Source of the DNA: Myxococcales bacterium | Lineage (GTDB): Bacteria > Myxococcota_A > Polyangia > Polyangiales > Houyiibacteriaceae | DNA length: 35,273 nt | NCBI GenBank assembly: GCA_012744445.1 | Contig: JAAYBZ010000025.1 | Span: 1-35,273, forward strand | Direction of reading: 5' to 3' | Part shown: one piece after another, positions 22,418 through 34,289 of the stretch | Layout of the letters: each line of letters starts with the position of its first letter | How positions within the stretch are numbered: position 1 is the stretch's first letter | Program-made: the position numbers and the translations under genes | The notes under the pieces: generated by a model | What the model saw: only the letters and a program-made list of their open reading frames with translations | Database searches by the model: none | Told to the model about the DNA's origin: nothing

Positions 22418-23551
22418 TCAGTCCTCGTCCGCGTCGGGCTTCCGATGCGGGAGGTTGCCCACCTCGAGGCGGCGCATCACGGCCTCGTTCTGACGCGCCT
22501 TGTAGGCGGCGTGGCTCGCGTCGCCCTCCTGGTTCTGGCGGTCGGTCTCCTGATCGAGGATCTGGAACTCGGTCTGCACGAAGATCACGCGCCCGAGCGG
22601 CCAGGCCGCGGGCGGCGCCTCGACGAGGATCTCCTCCGGGAGCCGCACGGGCATGTCGACCACGAAGTGCACCACGCGGTACTTCCGCGAAGTGAAGACG
22701 TTGTCGACGTTGGGCTCGATCGCGTCCTCGAGGTGGCGGTCGATCTGCAGGCGCGGGAGGAGCGAGGCGAGGTGCGGGTGCTCCTCGCAATAGCGCCGGA
22801 ACGGGATGAGCGTGTTCGTGCTCTGCCCCGGGATCGTGGAGTTGAAGGGCACGATCTCGCGCTGGAGGAAGTTGAGCACCGGGAAGATGTCGTCGCGCGT
22901 GCGCGTGACGATGCGGAACCGGAGCTTGTCGTAGATCTGCGCGGCCGTGACGTCGGGCTTGGACAGGAGCTTGGTGTAGAGCGAGTCGCGGTTCTTCCGA
23001 CCGCCGATGAACTCCACGATGGGTGCGCCCGCCGCGAGCGCGCCGCCGATCAGCCGGTAGACCTTCCGCTCGACGAGGTGGAAGACCTCCTCGTCGGAGA
23101 TCGGGAGCATGAAGAGCAGCTCGCGCGCCTCGAGGTGCTGGACGATCTGCATCACCTTGAGGATGGCGCAGGCGCAGAGCTGGCGATGGCCCTTGCCGCT
23201 CGCGAGCCGGATGAGGCCCACGACGTCTTGCTCGGAGACGGGGCGCGGGATCGGGAAGTCGAAGTGGCGCTTGAGGTAGTCGATCGCGTCCTGCTTCACC
23301 TTCTCGGCACGCGCGCGATCGGCGGGGTCCTCGGGATCGAATTCCTGCGCGCGCAGGAAGCGCTCGATCTCGGCGTCGCTCTCGAAGTTCAGCCGATACC
23401 AGTCGATCACCGAGCCGCCGCGCAGGAGCAAGCGGATCCCTTCGAGATCCGAGAGGCTCATCGACGCGAGCTCGGGAAACGCGGTGGCTTGGCTGGAGCT
23501 GTCCATACCCCTCGAGAGCCGAAGCATGAGCGACTTCGGCGCCGCGCGCAT
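22418..23551 (-). CDS. RelA/SpoT-fold protein, atypical synthetase-like domain (myxobacterial family, probably TIGR04552)
   Basis: 377 residues from the ATG at 23551, which has GGGAGGGGAA directly upstream. Residues 183-351 align by eye with the (p)ppGpp synthetase domain: GGRKNRDSLY with K186, a helix, IYDKLRFRIV with the metal-binding-type D208, the DDIFPVLNFL helix, Y291-R-V-V-H295 (compare YQSLH), TEFQI with E328 (compare VEVQI), and QEGDASHAAYK at 341-351 (compare EEGVAAHWKYK). An insertion of about 45 residues (236-282) separates the halves. No HD hydrolase domain, TGS or ACT domain is present. The first 100 residues are helical and unique to the family. I believe the family is catalogued as TIGR04552 without a function, but could not check. 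Whether it makes an alarmone is untested. Confidence 0.78.
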   Translation of the reverse strand: MRAAPKSLMLRLSRGMDSSSQATAFPELASMSLSDLEGIRLLLRGGSVIDWYRLNFESDAEIERFLRAQEFDPEDPADRARAEKVKQDAIDYLKRHFDFPIPRPVSEQDVVGLIRLASGKGHRQLCACAILKVMQIVQHLEARELLFMLPISDEEVFHLVERKVYRLIGGALAAGAPIVEFIGGRKNRDSLYTKLLSKPDVTAAQIYDKLRFRIVTRTRDDIFPVLNFLQREIVPFNSTIPGQSTNTLIPFRRYCEEHPHLASLLPRLQIDRHLEDAIEPNVDNVFTSRKYRVVHFVVDMPVRLPEEILVEAPPAAWPLGRVIFVQTEFQILDQETDRQNQEGDASHAAYKARQNEAVMRRLEVGNLPHRKPDADED

Positions 23552-23768: not shown

Positions 23769-23936
23769 GGGTTTCGTCTCCCTCGGTGGGTAGGAACGCG
23801 CATACGTTATCCTACACTCGTCGAAGGCGCCAACCTTCTACCAAACGCGGATTGGGTTGTCCACGCAGGCGGGCGATAACCCACGGTTTTTCCAGGAGGG
23901 TCGGCGCGACGATTGCCGCCTCACCCCTCCCTGCTC

Positions 23937-23942
23937 TATGGT
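23937..23942 (+). promoter_or_regulatory. -10-like TATGGT before the Lon-like gene
   Basis: TATGGT ends 11 nt before the ATG at 23954, giving a leader of about 5 nt. No sigma-32-like heat-shock promoter is apparent upstream, unlike classical lon genes. Confidence 0.42.
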
Positions 23943-23953
23943 GCCCTCGTGTG

Positions 23954-26299
23954 ATGAACGACCTCTCCGACGGTGACTTCCTTCCCCTTCTTCCGTTGCG
24001 CAACTCCGTTCTCTTCCCGGCGGCGGTCGTACCCGTCAACGTGGGTAGGAAGCGCTCGGTGAGGCTCATCGAGCAGGTCGAGGCCAACGAACGCGCGCTC
24101 ATCGTCGCGGTGGCCCAGCGCTCGCACGAGACCGAGGACCCGGACTTCGACGACCTCTACGAGGTCGCCACGGTCGCCCGGATCCTCAAGATCATCCGGC
24201 TCGGCTCCAAGAGCTACTCGGTGGTGCTCCAGGGCATGTCGCGCTGCCGCATCACCGAGCACGGCCAGTTCGACCCCTACCTCTCGGCCCGGATCGAGCC
24301 CGTGAACGTGCCGCGCCCCGCCGACCCGGTGGAGGTGGACGCGCTCGCCGCACACCTCCGCGAGACGGCGCGCCGGCATTTCGAGCGCATGCCTGCGCCT
24401 CGGCGCGACACGCCCACGATCGTCGAGAACGTGAAGGAGCCCGGCGCGCTCGCCGATCTCGTCGCCTCCAACCTCACCATCCCCACGTCGACCAAGCAGT
24501 CGGTCCTCGAGACGGTCGACGTCCGCGAGCGCATCCGCGCCGTGCTCGACATCGTGCAGCGGCAATCCGAGGTGGAGCGCGTCCGCAAGGAGATCACCAC
24601 GATGGTGGAGGAGGAGATGTCGCGCTCCCAGCGCGAGCTCATCCTCCGCCAGCAGCTCAAGGCCATCCGCCAGGAGCTCGGCGAGAGCGACGACGACGAG
24701 GAAGAGCTCGAGGAGCTCCGAGATCGCGTGGCGCACGCCAACCTCCCGCCCGACGCGGAGAAGGCCGCGCGCAAGGAGCTCCGCCGCATGAGCTCGATGG
24801 CGTCGGCGAGCGCCGAGTACCAGGTCGCGCGCACCTACGTGGAGTGGCTCCTCGACGTGCCCTGGAACGTGCTCACGCCCGACAAGCTCGACGTCGCGAC
24901 CGTGCGGCGCGTGCTCGACGAGGACCACTTCGGCCTCGAGCGCCCCAAGCGGCGCATCGTCGAGCAAGTGGCCGTGCGCAAGCTCCGCCGCGATGGGCGC
25001 GCGCCCATCCTCTGCTTCATCGGGCCGCCCGGCGTGGGCAAGACCTCGCTCGCGCGCTCCATCGCGCGGGCCGCGGGGCGCGCCTTCGAGCGCATCTCGC
25101 TCGGCGGCGTCGCCGACGAAGCCGAGATCCGCGGCCATCGCCGCACCTACGTCGGGGCCTTCCCCGGCCGCGTCATCACCGCGCTCAAGAAGGCGGCGAG
25201 CCGCAACCCCGTGATCGTCCTCGACGAGATCGACAAGTTGGGCCGCGATCACCGCGGCGATCCGTCGAGCGCGCTCCTCGAGGTGCTCGACCCCGAGCAG
25301 AACAAGGAGTTCGTCGATCACTACCTCGACGTGCCGGTCGACCTCAGCCAGGTGATGTTCATCGCCACGGCGAACCAGCGCGACAAGATCCCCTGGGCGC
25401 TCCTCGATCGCATGGAGGTGATCGAGATCCCGGGCTACACGCGCGACGAGAAGAAGGCGATCGCGCGCGAGTTCCTCGTGCCCAAGCAGCTCTCGGAGCA
25501 CGGGCTCACGCCCAACGAGCTCGAGTTCTCCGACGAGGCGATCGAGCACCTCATCGACGCCTACACCTACGACGCCGGCGTGCGCCGGCTCGAACAGAAC
25601 ATCGCGGCGATGTGCCGCGCGGTGGCGGTCGACTTCGCGCAGGGCGTGGGCGAGCCGCGGGTCGCCGATCCCGCCTTCGTGGAGAAGGTCCTCGGCCCGC
25701 CCAAGCACGTGCGTGAGCGGCCCGAGCGCACGGCGCGCGCCGGCGTGGCCACCGGCCTCGCGTGGACGCCAGCGGGCGGCTCGGTGATGCTCGTCGAGGC
25801 CACGCAGATGCCGGGCACCGGCAAGGTCCAGCTCACGGGCCGCATGGGCGAGGTGATGCAGGAGTCGGTGCAGACCGCGCTCAGCTATCTGCGCTCCAAG
25901 TCGGAGCAGTTCGGCCTCCCCGCCGACTTCCTCAGCTCGCTCGACGTGCACGTCCACATGCCCGAGGGCGCGGTGCCGAAGGACGGCGCGGCCGCGGGTC
26001 TCCCCGTGCTCGTCGCGCTCGCCTCGCTCCTCACGCGCCACGCCGTGCGCCCCGACATCGGCATGTCGGGCGAGGTCACGCTCCGCGGCAACCTCCTCCC
26101 CGTCTCCGGCGTGAAGGAGAAATGCCTCGGCGCGCTCCACGCGGGCATCCACGACGTGGTGCTCCCCGAGCGCAACGCGCCCGATCTCGAGGAGCTTCCG
26201 CCCGACGTGCGCGAGTCGATGCACTTCCACCTGGTCTCGCACGTCCGCGACGTCCTCCCCCTGGTGCTCGAGGGCACGCTGCCGTCCACGCTCGCATGA
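23954..26299 (+). CDS. Lon-family AAA+ protein with catalytic Ser replaced by Ala (predicted proteolytically inactive)
   Basis: 781 residues, full Lon architecture. The N-domain starts at PLLPLRNSVLFP. A coiled-coil stretch (about 200-260) precedes the AAA+ module with Walker A GPPGVGKT at 357-364, Walker B VIVLDEID at 420-427, sensor-1 Asn in IATANQ and sensor-2 Arg in GVRRLEQNI, all intact. The C-terminal protease domain is recognisable (GEVMQES, VHVHMPEGAVPKDG, MSGEVTLRG), with the active-site Lys K721 in GVKEKC. But the nucleophile motif PKDGPSAG reads PKDGAAAG, so the catalytic Ser is A680 (codon GCC at 25991-25993). ATP-driven unfolding should persist while peptide hydrolysis should not. 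The TGA stop overlaps the ATG of the metallopeptidase gene. The frame is open upstream to 23786 without Lon-like sequence. Confidence 0.93.
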   Translation: MNDLSDGDFLPLLPLRNSVLFPAAVVPVNVGRKRSVRLIEQVEANERALIVAVAQRSHETEDPDFDDLYEVATVARILKIIRLGSKSYSVVLQGMSRCRITEHGQFDPYLSARIEPVNVPRPADPVEVDALAAHLRETARRHFERMPAPRRDTPTIVENVKEPGALADLVASNLTIPTSTKQSVLETVDVRERIRAVLDIVQRQSEVERVRKEITTMVEEEMSRSQRELILRQQLKAIRQELGESDDDEEELEELRDRVAHANLPPDAEKAARKELRRMSSMASASAEYQVARTYVEWLLDVPWNVLTPDKLDVATVRRVLDEDHFGLERPKRRIVEQVAVRKLRRDGRAPILCFIGPPGVGKTSLARSIARAAGRAFERISLGGVADEAEIRGHRRTYVGAFPGRVITALKKAASRNPVIVLDEIDKLGRDHRGDPSSALLEVLDPEQNKEFVDHYLDVPVDLSQVMFIATANQRDKIPWALLDRMEVIEIPGYTRDEKKAIAREFLVPKQLSEHGLTPNELEFSDEAIEHLIDAYTYDAGVRRLEQNIAAMCRAVAVDFAQGVGEPRVADPAFVEKVLGPPKHVRERPERTARAGVATGLAWTPAGGSVMLVEATQMPGTGKVQLTGRMGEVMQESVQTALSYLRSKSEQFGLPADFLSSLDVHVHMPEGAVPKDGAAAGLPVLVALASLLTRHAVRPDIGMSGEVTLRGNLLPVSGVKEKCLGALHAGIHDVVLPERNAPDLEELPPDVRESMHFHLVSHVRDVLPLVLEGTLPSTLA

Positions 26300-28482
26300 G
26301 GCGCACGAAGGCCTTCTTCGCCCGCTTCTTCCCCGAGCTCTTCGCCTTCGCCCTCGGGGCCGCGCTCACCGCCGATCGGCTCCTCGGGATCCCAGGGCCA
26401 GAGAGCGCGCTCCTCGTCGGCGGCCTCGTCGCGCCGGCGCTCGCGGCGTGGACGGCGGGCCGCGCTCCGAAGGAAGGCGCCCGCGCGATCCTCGGGAGCG
26501 CCATCCTCCGCGCCTACACGACGCTCTTCGCCGCCGTGGTCCCCCTCGTGGTCCACGCGGCCTTCGTGCCGTTCTGCGGCCCGGGCGAGGCCCTCCTCTT
26601 CTTCGCGTACGGGCCCTGTGTCGGGCTCCCGCTCGCGGCGCTCGTCGGCGCGAGCGCGCGCAAGGTCCTCGAGAGGCGCGGGCCGGCCGTCGCCGCCGCG
26701 CTCGCGCTCACGCTCGGCAGCATCGTGCTCGGCGTCGCGGAGTTCTGGTCCACGCCGGGCATCGCGATCTTCGGCGAGTACGCGGGCTTCTTCCCCGGCA
26801 CGTTCTACGACATCGGCGTGCGCTTCCCCGAGTCGATGCACTCCTACCGCCTCGGGAGCGCCTTCCTCGCCGCGGCGCTCGTGCTCTTCCTCGCCGCGTC
26901 CGATCGCCGCGCGCGCGCCGTGGCCTTCGTCCTCTTCCTCGTCTTCGTCGCCTTCCGCGCCGAGGGAGAGCGCCTCGGGCATCGCACGAGCGTCGCGCGC
27001 ATCGACGAAGCCCTCGGGGGCGTGCTCGTCGGCGAGCGCTGCACGCTCCACTACCCGCGCGAGGTGCCGCTCCCCACGGCTCGCCTCCACCTCGACGACT
27101 GCGACGGGATCGTGGCGCGGCTCTCCTCGCGGATGGGCCTCGCGGCGCCGCCGCGCGTCGACGTCTTCTACTATCGCTCGGCGCCGGAGAAGCGCGAGCT
27201 CATGGGCGCGGGCCAGGTCGACCTCGCCAAGCCTTGGCGGCGCGAGGCGCACCTCGTCCTCGACCGCTTCCCGCACCCCGTCCTCACGCACGAGCTCACG
27301 CACGTGGTGGGCGGCGAGCTCGTCCCCAACCTCTTCGGCGTGCCGGGACGGCTCGGCGGGCTCGTGCCCAATCCCGGCCTCATCGAGGGGTTCGCCGTCG
27401 CGCACGCGTGGGAGGAGCGCATGGATCTCGAGCCGCACCAGGCCGCGCGCGCGCTCCTCGAGCTCGACCGGCTCCCTCCGGCCGTGGACGTCACGGGCCT
27501 CGGGTTCGTGCGGCACCCGGCCTCGGCCGCCTACGCCGCGGCCGGCTCCTTCCTCCGCTTCGTGATGGAGCGCTTCGGCGACGCCGCGCTCTCCAAGGTC
27601 TACGCCGAGGGCTCGATCGAGGCGCTCGGGGTTCCCCTCGCCGAGCTCGAGGCCACCTACCGCGACTTCCTCCGCGGCGTCTCGCTCCCCGAAGGCGCCG
27701 TGGCGCTCGCGGCCACGCGCTTCTCGCGGCCGAGCGTCTTCCATGCGGCGTGCCCGCACGAGACCACGAGCCTCCGCGCAAAGCTCGCGGCCGACCTCGC
27801 CACGTCGGACTTCGAGCTCGCCGTGGAGACCGCCGACGCGATCCTCGCGATCGACGACACGGACCTCGGGGTCCACGTCGACCACGTGCGCGCGCTCGCG
27901 GCCGCCGGTCGCTTCGACGAGGCGGAGCGCGCCCACGCCGAGATGGAGTCGCGGCGCTTCCCGGGGCCGATCCTCGCCCGCTCGCTCGGACACCTCGGGG
28001 ACGAGCGCTGGCGCCGCGGCGAGTCCGAGATGGCGCGCGCACATTACGAGGCGGCGCTCGCGCTCCCCGACACCGACGACGCCGCCCGGAACCTCGAGGT
28101 CCGCCGCTACGCCATCGAGCGCGGGGGCGAGGTCGAGTCGATCCTCCGGAAGCTGCTCCTCGGCGAGCCCGACTTCCCGAGCGACTCGGTCTACGTCGTG
28201 CACCTCACGCGCGCGCTCGCCGAAGCGGGGGAGCCCTCCCTCGCGGCCTATCTCGAGGCTCGACAGCTCGCGATGCGCGATCGCAACGACGCCGCGCTCG
28301 CGCTCCTCTCGCGCGTGGGCGACCTCCCCACGCAGCGCCTCCGGCGCGAGGCCGACCGCATGAGGCTCCGCGCGCTCTACACGACGGGGCGATACGAGGA
28401 GGCGCGCGCGCTCGCCCGTCGGCTCCTCGCCGACCCGGCCGCCGCGCGGGAGGCCAAGGGCTACCTCGAGCGCCTCGACTGA
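26296..28482 (+). CDS. Multi-pass membrane metallopeptidase (gluzincin, peptidase MA-like) with C-terminal helical repeats
   Basis: 728 residues. About seven membrane helices lie at 16-32, 38-53, 74-93, 98-118, 130-150, 186-201 and 207-222; basic loops (RAPKEGAR, ARKVLERRG, DRRAR) all fall on the N-terminal side, so the C-terminal part should be periplasmic. Residues about 245-470 form a zinc peptidase domain with H332-E333-L-T-H336 and, 28 residues on, the third-ligand motif GLIEGFA with E364, as in gluzincins. Residues about 500-728 are TPR-like helical hairpins. The ATG overlaps the Lon stop (ATGA), so expression is coupled. The product could process envelope proteins, with the repeats recruiting substrate. 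Its stop is 4 bp from the convergent coiled-coil gene. Confidence 0.85.
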   Translation: MRRTKAFFARFFPELFAFALGAALTADRLLGIPGPESALLVGGLVAPALAAWTAGRAPKEGARAILGSAILRAYTTLFAAVVPLVVHAAFVPFCGPGEALLFFAYGPCVGLPLAALVGASARKVLERRGPAVAAALALTLGSIVLGVAEFWSTPGIAIFGEYAGFFPGTFYDIGVRFPESMHSYRLGSAFLAAALVLFLAASDRRARAVAFVLFLVFVAFRAEGERLGHRTSVARIDEALGGVLVGERCTLHYPREVPLPTARLHLDDCDGIVARLSSRMGLAAPPRVDVFYYRSAPEKRELMGAGQVDLAKPWRREAHLVLDRFPHPVLTHELTHVVGGELVPNLFGVPGRLGGLVPNPGLIEGFAVAHAWEERMDLEPHQAARALLELDRLPPAVDVTGLGFVRHPASAAYAAAGSFLRFVMERFGDAALSKVYAEGSIEALGVPLAELEATYRDFLRGVSLPEGAVALAATRFSRPSVFHAACPHETTSLRAKLAADLATSDFELAVETADAILAIDDTDLGVHVDHVRALAAAGRFDEAERAHAEMESRRFPGPILARSLGHLGDERWRRGESEMARAHYEAALALPDTDDAARNLEVRRYAIERGGEVESILRKLLLGEPDFPSDSVYVVHLTRALAEAGEPSLAAYLEARQLAMRDRNDAALALLSRVGDLPTQRLRREADRMRLRALYTTGRYEEARALARRLLADPAAAREAKGYLERLD

Positions 28483-33725: not shown

Positions 33726-34289
33726 ATGGCGGTGAAGTTCACGCCAGCCCAGCGCTCGTACATCCGCAAGCGCACCAAGGTGCACGTGCCGGGGCCGGAC
33801 GAGCTCGACGACGAGCTCAACATCGTCCCCTTCCTCGACATCGTCATCAACCTCATCATGTTCCTCCTGATGACGATCTCGACGGCGGCGTTCTTCAACC
33901 AGATCGACACCTCGCTGCCCAAGCTCGGCAGCGGCGGCGCCAAGGGCGCGCAGCAGGAGAACCCCCTGAACCTCACGGTGACGGTCACGCGCGAAGGCAT
34001 CGCGCTCACCGGCTCCAACGGGAAGATCCTCCCGGGCTGCCGCGAGTTCACGACCACGGGCCGCGTCGTCACCGTCCCCAACCGCCCCGACGGCAACTTC
34101 GACTGGGCGGGCCTCACCGAGTGCGCGGCGCGGATCAAGGAGACCTTCAAGGACGAGCAGCGCGTGACGGTGAGCGCCGATCCGACCGTCGCCTATCAGA
34201 GCGTCGTCGACGCGATGGACGCCGTCCGCAACGACAAGGACGGCAAGCCCCTCTTTCCCGAGGTGCTCATCTCGGCGGGTGTGAGGTGA
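33726..34289 (+). CDS. ExbD/TolR-family biopolymer transport protein (second cassette, first copy)
   Basis: 187 residues. A basic N-terminus and an acidic segment (DELDDELNIVPFLD) lead into the membrane helix about 34-55 with D38. The periplasmic domain contains LNLTVTVTREGIALTG, a segment with two cysteines (about residues 101 and 138) and the terminal ExbD element (RVTVSADPTVAYQSVVDAMDAVR). The two cysteines are unusual for ExbD and could form a disulfide in the periplasm. It lies 17 bp after the ExbB gene. Confidence 0.93.
   Translation: MAVKFTPAQRSYIRKRTKVHVPGPDELDDELNIVPFLDIVINLIMFLLMTISTAAFFNQIDTSLPKLGSGGAKGAQQENPLNLTVTVTREGIALTGSNGKILPGCREFTTTGRVVTVPNRPDGNFDWAGLTECAARIKETFKDEQRVTVSADPTVAYQSVVDAMDAVRNDKDGKPLFPEVLISAGVR

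Follow-up and report, generated by a model that had tools for sequence, protein, structure and literature searches.

Chaperone-like roles of Lon, apart from its proteolysis, have long been suspected, and the evidence comes largely from engineered dead mutants. Overproduced, proteolytically inactive yeast Pim1 made up for a missing m-AAA protease (PMC7072132), although this rescue was later considered indirect. The lon(S679A) gene of Escherichia coli serves as a catalytically inactive allele (PMC4554461). Natural pseudo-protease relatives of AAA+ or chambered proteases are known from plant plastids: FtsHi and ClpR keep the fold of their families (FtsHi its ATPase too) and are important there although their catalytic site is gone (PMC8197885). 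Among Bacteria, BrxL of the BREX defence system is an AAA+ protein whose Lon-like domain, at the C-terminus, is inactive (PMC12839542). A further Lon relative, LonC, has lost its ATPase and kept its peptidase, and MEROPS lists non-peptidase Lon homologues (both PMC9569914). A natural clade of full-length LonA proteins that has repeatedly lost the catalytic dyad was not described in the open-access literature that we searched.

This clade differs from each of these systems. FtsHi and ClpR derive from other families (the metalloprotease FtsH and the serine protease ClpP) and belong to eukaryotic organelles, whereas LonX, as we call the protein studied here, sits in a bacterial LonA clade with about 10 separate losses. 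BrxL has another architecture and a phage-restriction function. E. coli Lon S679A and inactive Pim1 carry the same kind of substitution, but they are laboratory mutants, whereas the change in LonX is natural and recurrent.

LonX is a full-length LonA with a broken peptidase site

The window, that is, the whole stretch of 35,273 nucleotides that we analyzed, is contig C140 of a 3.77-Mb genome that is 94% complete and comprises 236 contigs. On its forward strand, lonX (23954-26299) encodes a 781-amino acid LonA-type protein without the catalytic Ser. The likely start is the ATG at 23954; the enclosing open reading frame (23786-26299, forward strand, 837 amino acids) adds an N-terminus that is superfluous for the family match. 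LonX has the LonA architecture in one chain, with an N-terminal LON substrate-binding domain (PF02190), an AAA+ module with its lid (PF00004 and PF22667) and a Lon_C protease domain (PF05362). It scores 885 bits against TIGR00763 (cut-off 608) and only 53.5 bits against the BrxL profile TIGR02653, below the cut-off of 628. Identity to its orthologues and paralogues ranges from 43 to 69%. LonX shares domain order, predicted fold and an above-cut-off profile match with the LonA protease (endopeptidase La, MEROPS S16), from which it differs by a broken Ser-Lys dyad and by Ala in place of the Pro before the Ser.

The catalytic serine loop (25976-25999, forward strand; CCG AAG GAC GGC GCG GCC GCG GGT) reads PKDGAAAG. 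Alignment places Ala (GCC, 25991-25993) at the position of E. coli S679 and a second Ala (GCG, 25988-25990) at that of P678. Codons and alignment thus bear out an earlier sequence-only reading of this DNA, which had described a Lon with PKDGAAAG for PKDGPSAG, the preceding Pro being Ala as well. LonA has been described as invariably carrying a Pro before the catalytic Ser (PMC9569914); LonX has Ala-Ala. Farther on, a Met-Ser-Gly (26063-26071, forward strand), part of MSGE, puts Ser at the T704 position. The catalytic Lys is retained, as the same reading had held, 42 residues lying between the Ser position and the Lys. The residue that it named, K721 (26114-26116), is the first Lys of a KEK motif (26114-26122, forward strand), two residues before the true K722 equivalent (AAA, 26120-26122). 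This misassignment leaves the conclusion unchanged because both residues are Lys.

By contrast with the peptidase site, Walker A, Walker B, the sensor Asn, the Arg and the pore-loop residues of LonX are all intact, in agreement with the earlier claim that the ATP-driven motor is preserved. This pattern (ATPase residues kept, dyad lost) is the reverse of that in LonC. The AlphaFold model of LonX, computed with 22 homologues, has a mean pLDDT of 85 and a pTM of 0.56, and its domain arrangement is uncertain. Its top matches in the PDB are bacterial Lons, including MtaLon S678A (7ypk, substrate-bound) and E. coli LonA S679A (6u5z). The modeled dead-site fold appears compatible with a closed, substrate-holding ring.

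Loss of the dyad is recurrent within a distinct clade

Orthologues came from searches of relatives, of the order and of the class, followed by reading of the loci. The resulting clade comprises 54 sequences, two of which are named records duplicating other genomes in the set, and its members span many families of one Myxococcota order. It is distinct (SH-aLRT 99) on a tree built without the active-site columns. Residue 679 is Ala in 34 members, Gly in one and Ser in 19, so that Ser is replaced in 35 of 54, more than chance would give. In the tree set, each of the 35 sister and outgroup Lons carries Ser679, and Ser was absent from none of the readable Lons outside the clade from other phyla. 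The loop reads AAAG in Myxococcales bacterium SG8_38 and Myxococcales isolate bin861, PAQG in the Sandaracinaceae isolate ACE_MYX11 and TSGG in a Sandaracinus sp. bin.

Residue 679 changed at least 10 times on the tree, a number that a losses-only model also gives, and a single inherited loss of Ser is thereby ruled out. Four members keep Ser and instead have K722R (L021, L034, L052 and L036, the last being the orthologue from the same genus as the window). The Ser-Lys dyad is therefore missing in 39 of 54 clade members, compared with 0 of 35 sister and outgroup Lons. Both residues are kept in 15 members, three of which have a fully canonical PSAG (L010, L023 and L024). These findings bear on the earlier question of whether the Ala is conserved in a distinct clade: the clade exists, but the Ala is not clade-wide, and Ser or Lys has been lost repeatedly. 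Close orthologues with Ser had been named as evidence against a dead Lon, and the same-genus orthologue is formally such a case; yet its K722R breaks the dyad by a different path.

Some of the members with both Ser and Lys may have remained proteases; proteolysis was presumably the ancestral function of the clade. Three ASAG members (L013, L014 and L081) nest inside a genus that is otherwise AAAG. Their Ser was either retained or regained, and a one-base change from GCN to TCN would suffice for the latter. An independent-pairs test of Ser loss against changes at T704, G717, A680, P678 and C723 had very few pairs to draw on.

The motor is conserved and constraint is lifted at the peptidase site

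Walker A K362, Walker B D423 and E424, pore Y398, sensor N473, R484 and R542 are invariant in all 54 members; T363 is Ser in one. Rates of change, normalized against active relatives, are 0.90 for the N-domain, 1.07 for the AAA core, 0.84 for the lid and 1.17 for the protease domain, and constraint on the N-domain and AAA+ region is not relaxed. The most shifted sites include G717, A680, M703, T704 and S679, together with a few others such as L144, L771, Q408 and A602 (single-site P values uncorrected), and sites that vary in this clade alone cluster in the peptidase site. That site is not fully eroded: H665, H667 and E706 are conserved in the clade, as are nearly all D676 and most K722. In seven serine-less pairs, Ka/Ks was 0.03 to 0.10 overall and 0.03 to 0.175 in the protease domain.

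Low Ka/Ks together with site-focused rate shifts indicates that the protein is maintained and that constraint has been lifted specifically on the peptidase site. An intact motor in every member and low Ka/Ks mean that LonX is neither a sequencing error nor a pseudogene. The former, already doubted in the sequence-only reading, is further ruled out because many independent assemblies carry the change. With a conserved motor, lost catalytic residues and purifying selection, LonX has the features of an AAA+ pseudo-protease.

LonX as a probable peptidase-dead unfoldase

We propose, with a probability of roughly 0.6, that LonX is a recurrently evolved, peptidase-dead LonA unfoldase or remodeler. 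Judged from the residues lost, members without the Ser or the Lys are very probably dead as peptidases. LonX would bind ATP and should assemble as a Lon hexamer, and its motor should then pull, unfold or remodel clients. Cutting them would be impossible with the dyad broken, through loss of the nucleophilic Ser or, in some relatives, of the general-base Lys. The protein would thus be a specialized, peptidase-free extra copy, probably in one pathway with the metallopeptidase-like membrane protein encoded by the overlapping downstream gene. We infer each of these components (unfolding without cutting, a homo-hexamer and the functional link to the neighbor). A natural Lon-type unfoldase or chaperone, or a regulatory subunit, had been suggested before; the intact motor, the broken peptidase site and the distinct clade fit that suggestion, but the dyad is not lost in all members.

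The genome encodes three other full-length Lons (on contigs C108, C188 and C80), all with PKDGPSAG and the Lys. A search for another lon with this motif, which had been advised earlier, thus gave three, and the genome therefore keeps ordinary Lon proteolysis. In the C188-type Lon (L071, on G001:C307) of a genome from the same genus, the residue aligned with E. coli K720 is Gln (GGIQSK), and the K722 equivalent is kept. The presence of three active Lons, and of a paralogue 56% identical to LonX, raises the unlikely alternative that LonX is a regulatory subunit, joining hexamers of an active paralogue and tuning proteolysis or substrate choice. ClpR, which mixes with ClpP, provides a precedent (PMC8197885), and the protease domain and fold remain under constraint despite the lost catalytic residues. 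However, the N-domain and ATPase of LonX are complete, and its gene forms an operon of its own.

A conserved membrane protein gene overlaps lonX

The gene directly downstream of lonX (26296-28482, forward strand) encodes a 728-amino acid protein, here called the zincin, with about seven N-terminal transmembrane helices, a gluzincin-like HExxH...E motif (HELTH, with the downstream Glu in GLIEG) and C-terminal TPRs. Its start codon overlaps the lonX stop (ATGA, 26296-26299). The gene lies immediately downstream of lonX in 44 of 46 testable genomes (the exceptions are G177 and G178), a count that leaves out five genomes with contig-end breaks and one without a match. This conserved operon was absent from the sequence-only reading. 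HExxH and the downstream Glu are present in all 20 zincin orthologues examined, beside dead and live Lons alike. The gene also adjoins several active sister Lons, so the pairing is older than the loss of Ser. Furthermore, nearly every genome of the order carries a single copy of it (165 of 179 have the gene), also where the Lon clade is absent, and it is therefore not dependent on lonX.

The zincin has no peptidase family match in Pfam or NCBIfam and no peptidase match in the PDB, and it appears to represent an uncharacterized metallopeptidase-like family. In its AlphaFold model, built with five sequences, the peptidase region is poorly predicted (mean pLDDT 64), and most matches in a structure search with this model were to TPRs and helical repeats. 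Visual inspection of hydropathy, combined with the positive-inside rule, suggests that it probably has its N-terminus inside, seven transmembrane helices and a periplasmic catalytic domain. Direct hand-over of substrates from LonX was not taken as the main model, because a catalytic domain in the periplasm would have no direct contact with a Lon in the cytoplasm. It is doubtful, but conceivable, that the two form a split AAA+/metalloprotease module, in which LonX would be the ATP-driven partner of the zincin or would extract or control it across the membrane. If so, unfolding and cutting, which FtsH combines in one chain, would be divided between two proteins.

Other genes of the window include a TIGR04552-family gene with a weak RelA/SpoT-like region (22418-23551, reverse strand), divergent upstream of lonX and conserved in most clade loci; a pectinacetylesterase-family gene (PF03283; 31583-32848, reverse strand); and an ExbD/TolR-like gene (33726-34289, forward strand) within a downstream cluster also found in several relatives.

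Holding, cutting and decay as alternatives

LonX could also act as an ATP-driven trap or scaffold, keeping hold of bound clients instead of unfolding and releasing them. Closed rings with substrate bound are formed by engineered S678A Lon (7ypk), and a dead chamber would have no obvious route by which to clear translocated chains. We nevertheless regard this as quite improbable, since conservation of the ATPase-cycle residues in 54 of 54 members suggests turnover rather than static holding.

Residual peptidase activity, with another residue standing in for Ser679, might explain why most members retain the catalytic Lys, the two active-site His, D676 and E706 and why a Cys follows the catalytic Lys in 49 of 54 members. 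As a replacement nucleophile, this Cys was rejected: other lineages have the same KEKCL Cys in Lons that bear Ser (L105, L108, L109, L126 and L131). Moreover, AAAG members have no Ser, Thr or Cys at or beside position 679, four members lose the Lys instead of the Ser, and S679A is, as the earlier reading stated, the standard inactive form of E. coli Lon, in use as such (PMC4554461). A cryptic protease is thus very unlikely. That LonX is a decaying, unimportant extra copy is hardly credible: recurrent catalytic loss does resemble relaxed constraint on cutting, but frames are open throughout, Ka/Ks is 0.03 to 0.1, motor residues are invariant and the operon is conserved across families.

Implications

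By profile score, genes of the lonX type come out as 'endopeptidase La' and would be labeled proteases, an annotation that we correct here. The clade offers matched dead and apparently live orthologues for testing a motor-only role of Lon. That the dyad was lost about 10 times while the motor stayed intact is evidence from evolution that a Lon motor can be of use even if it does not cut.
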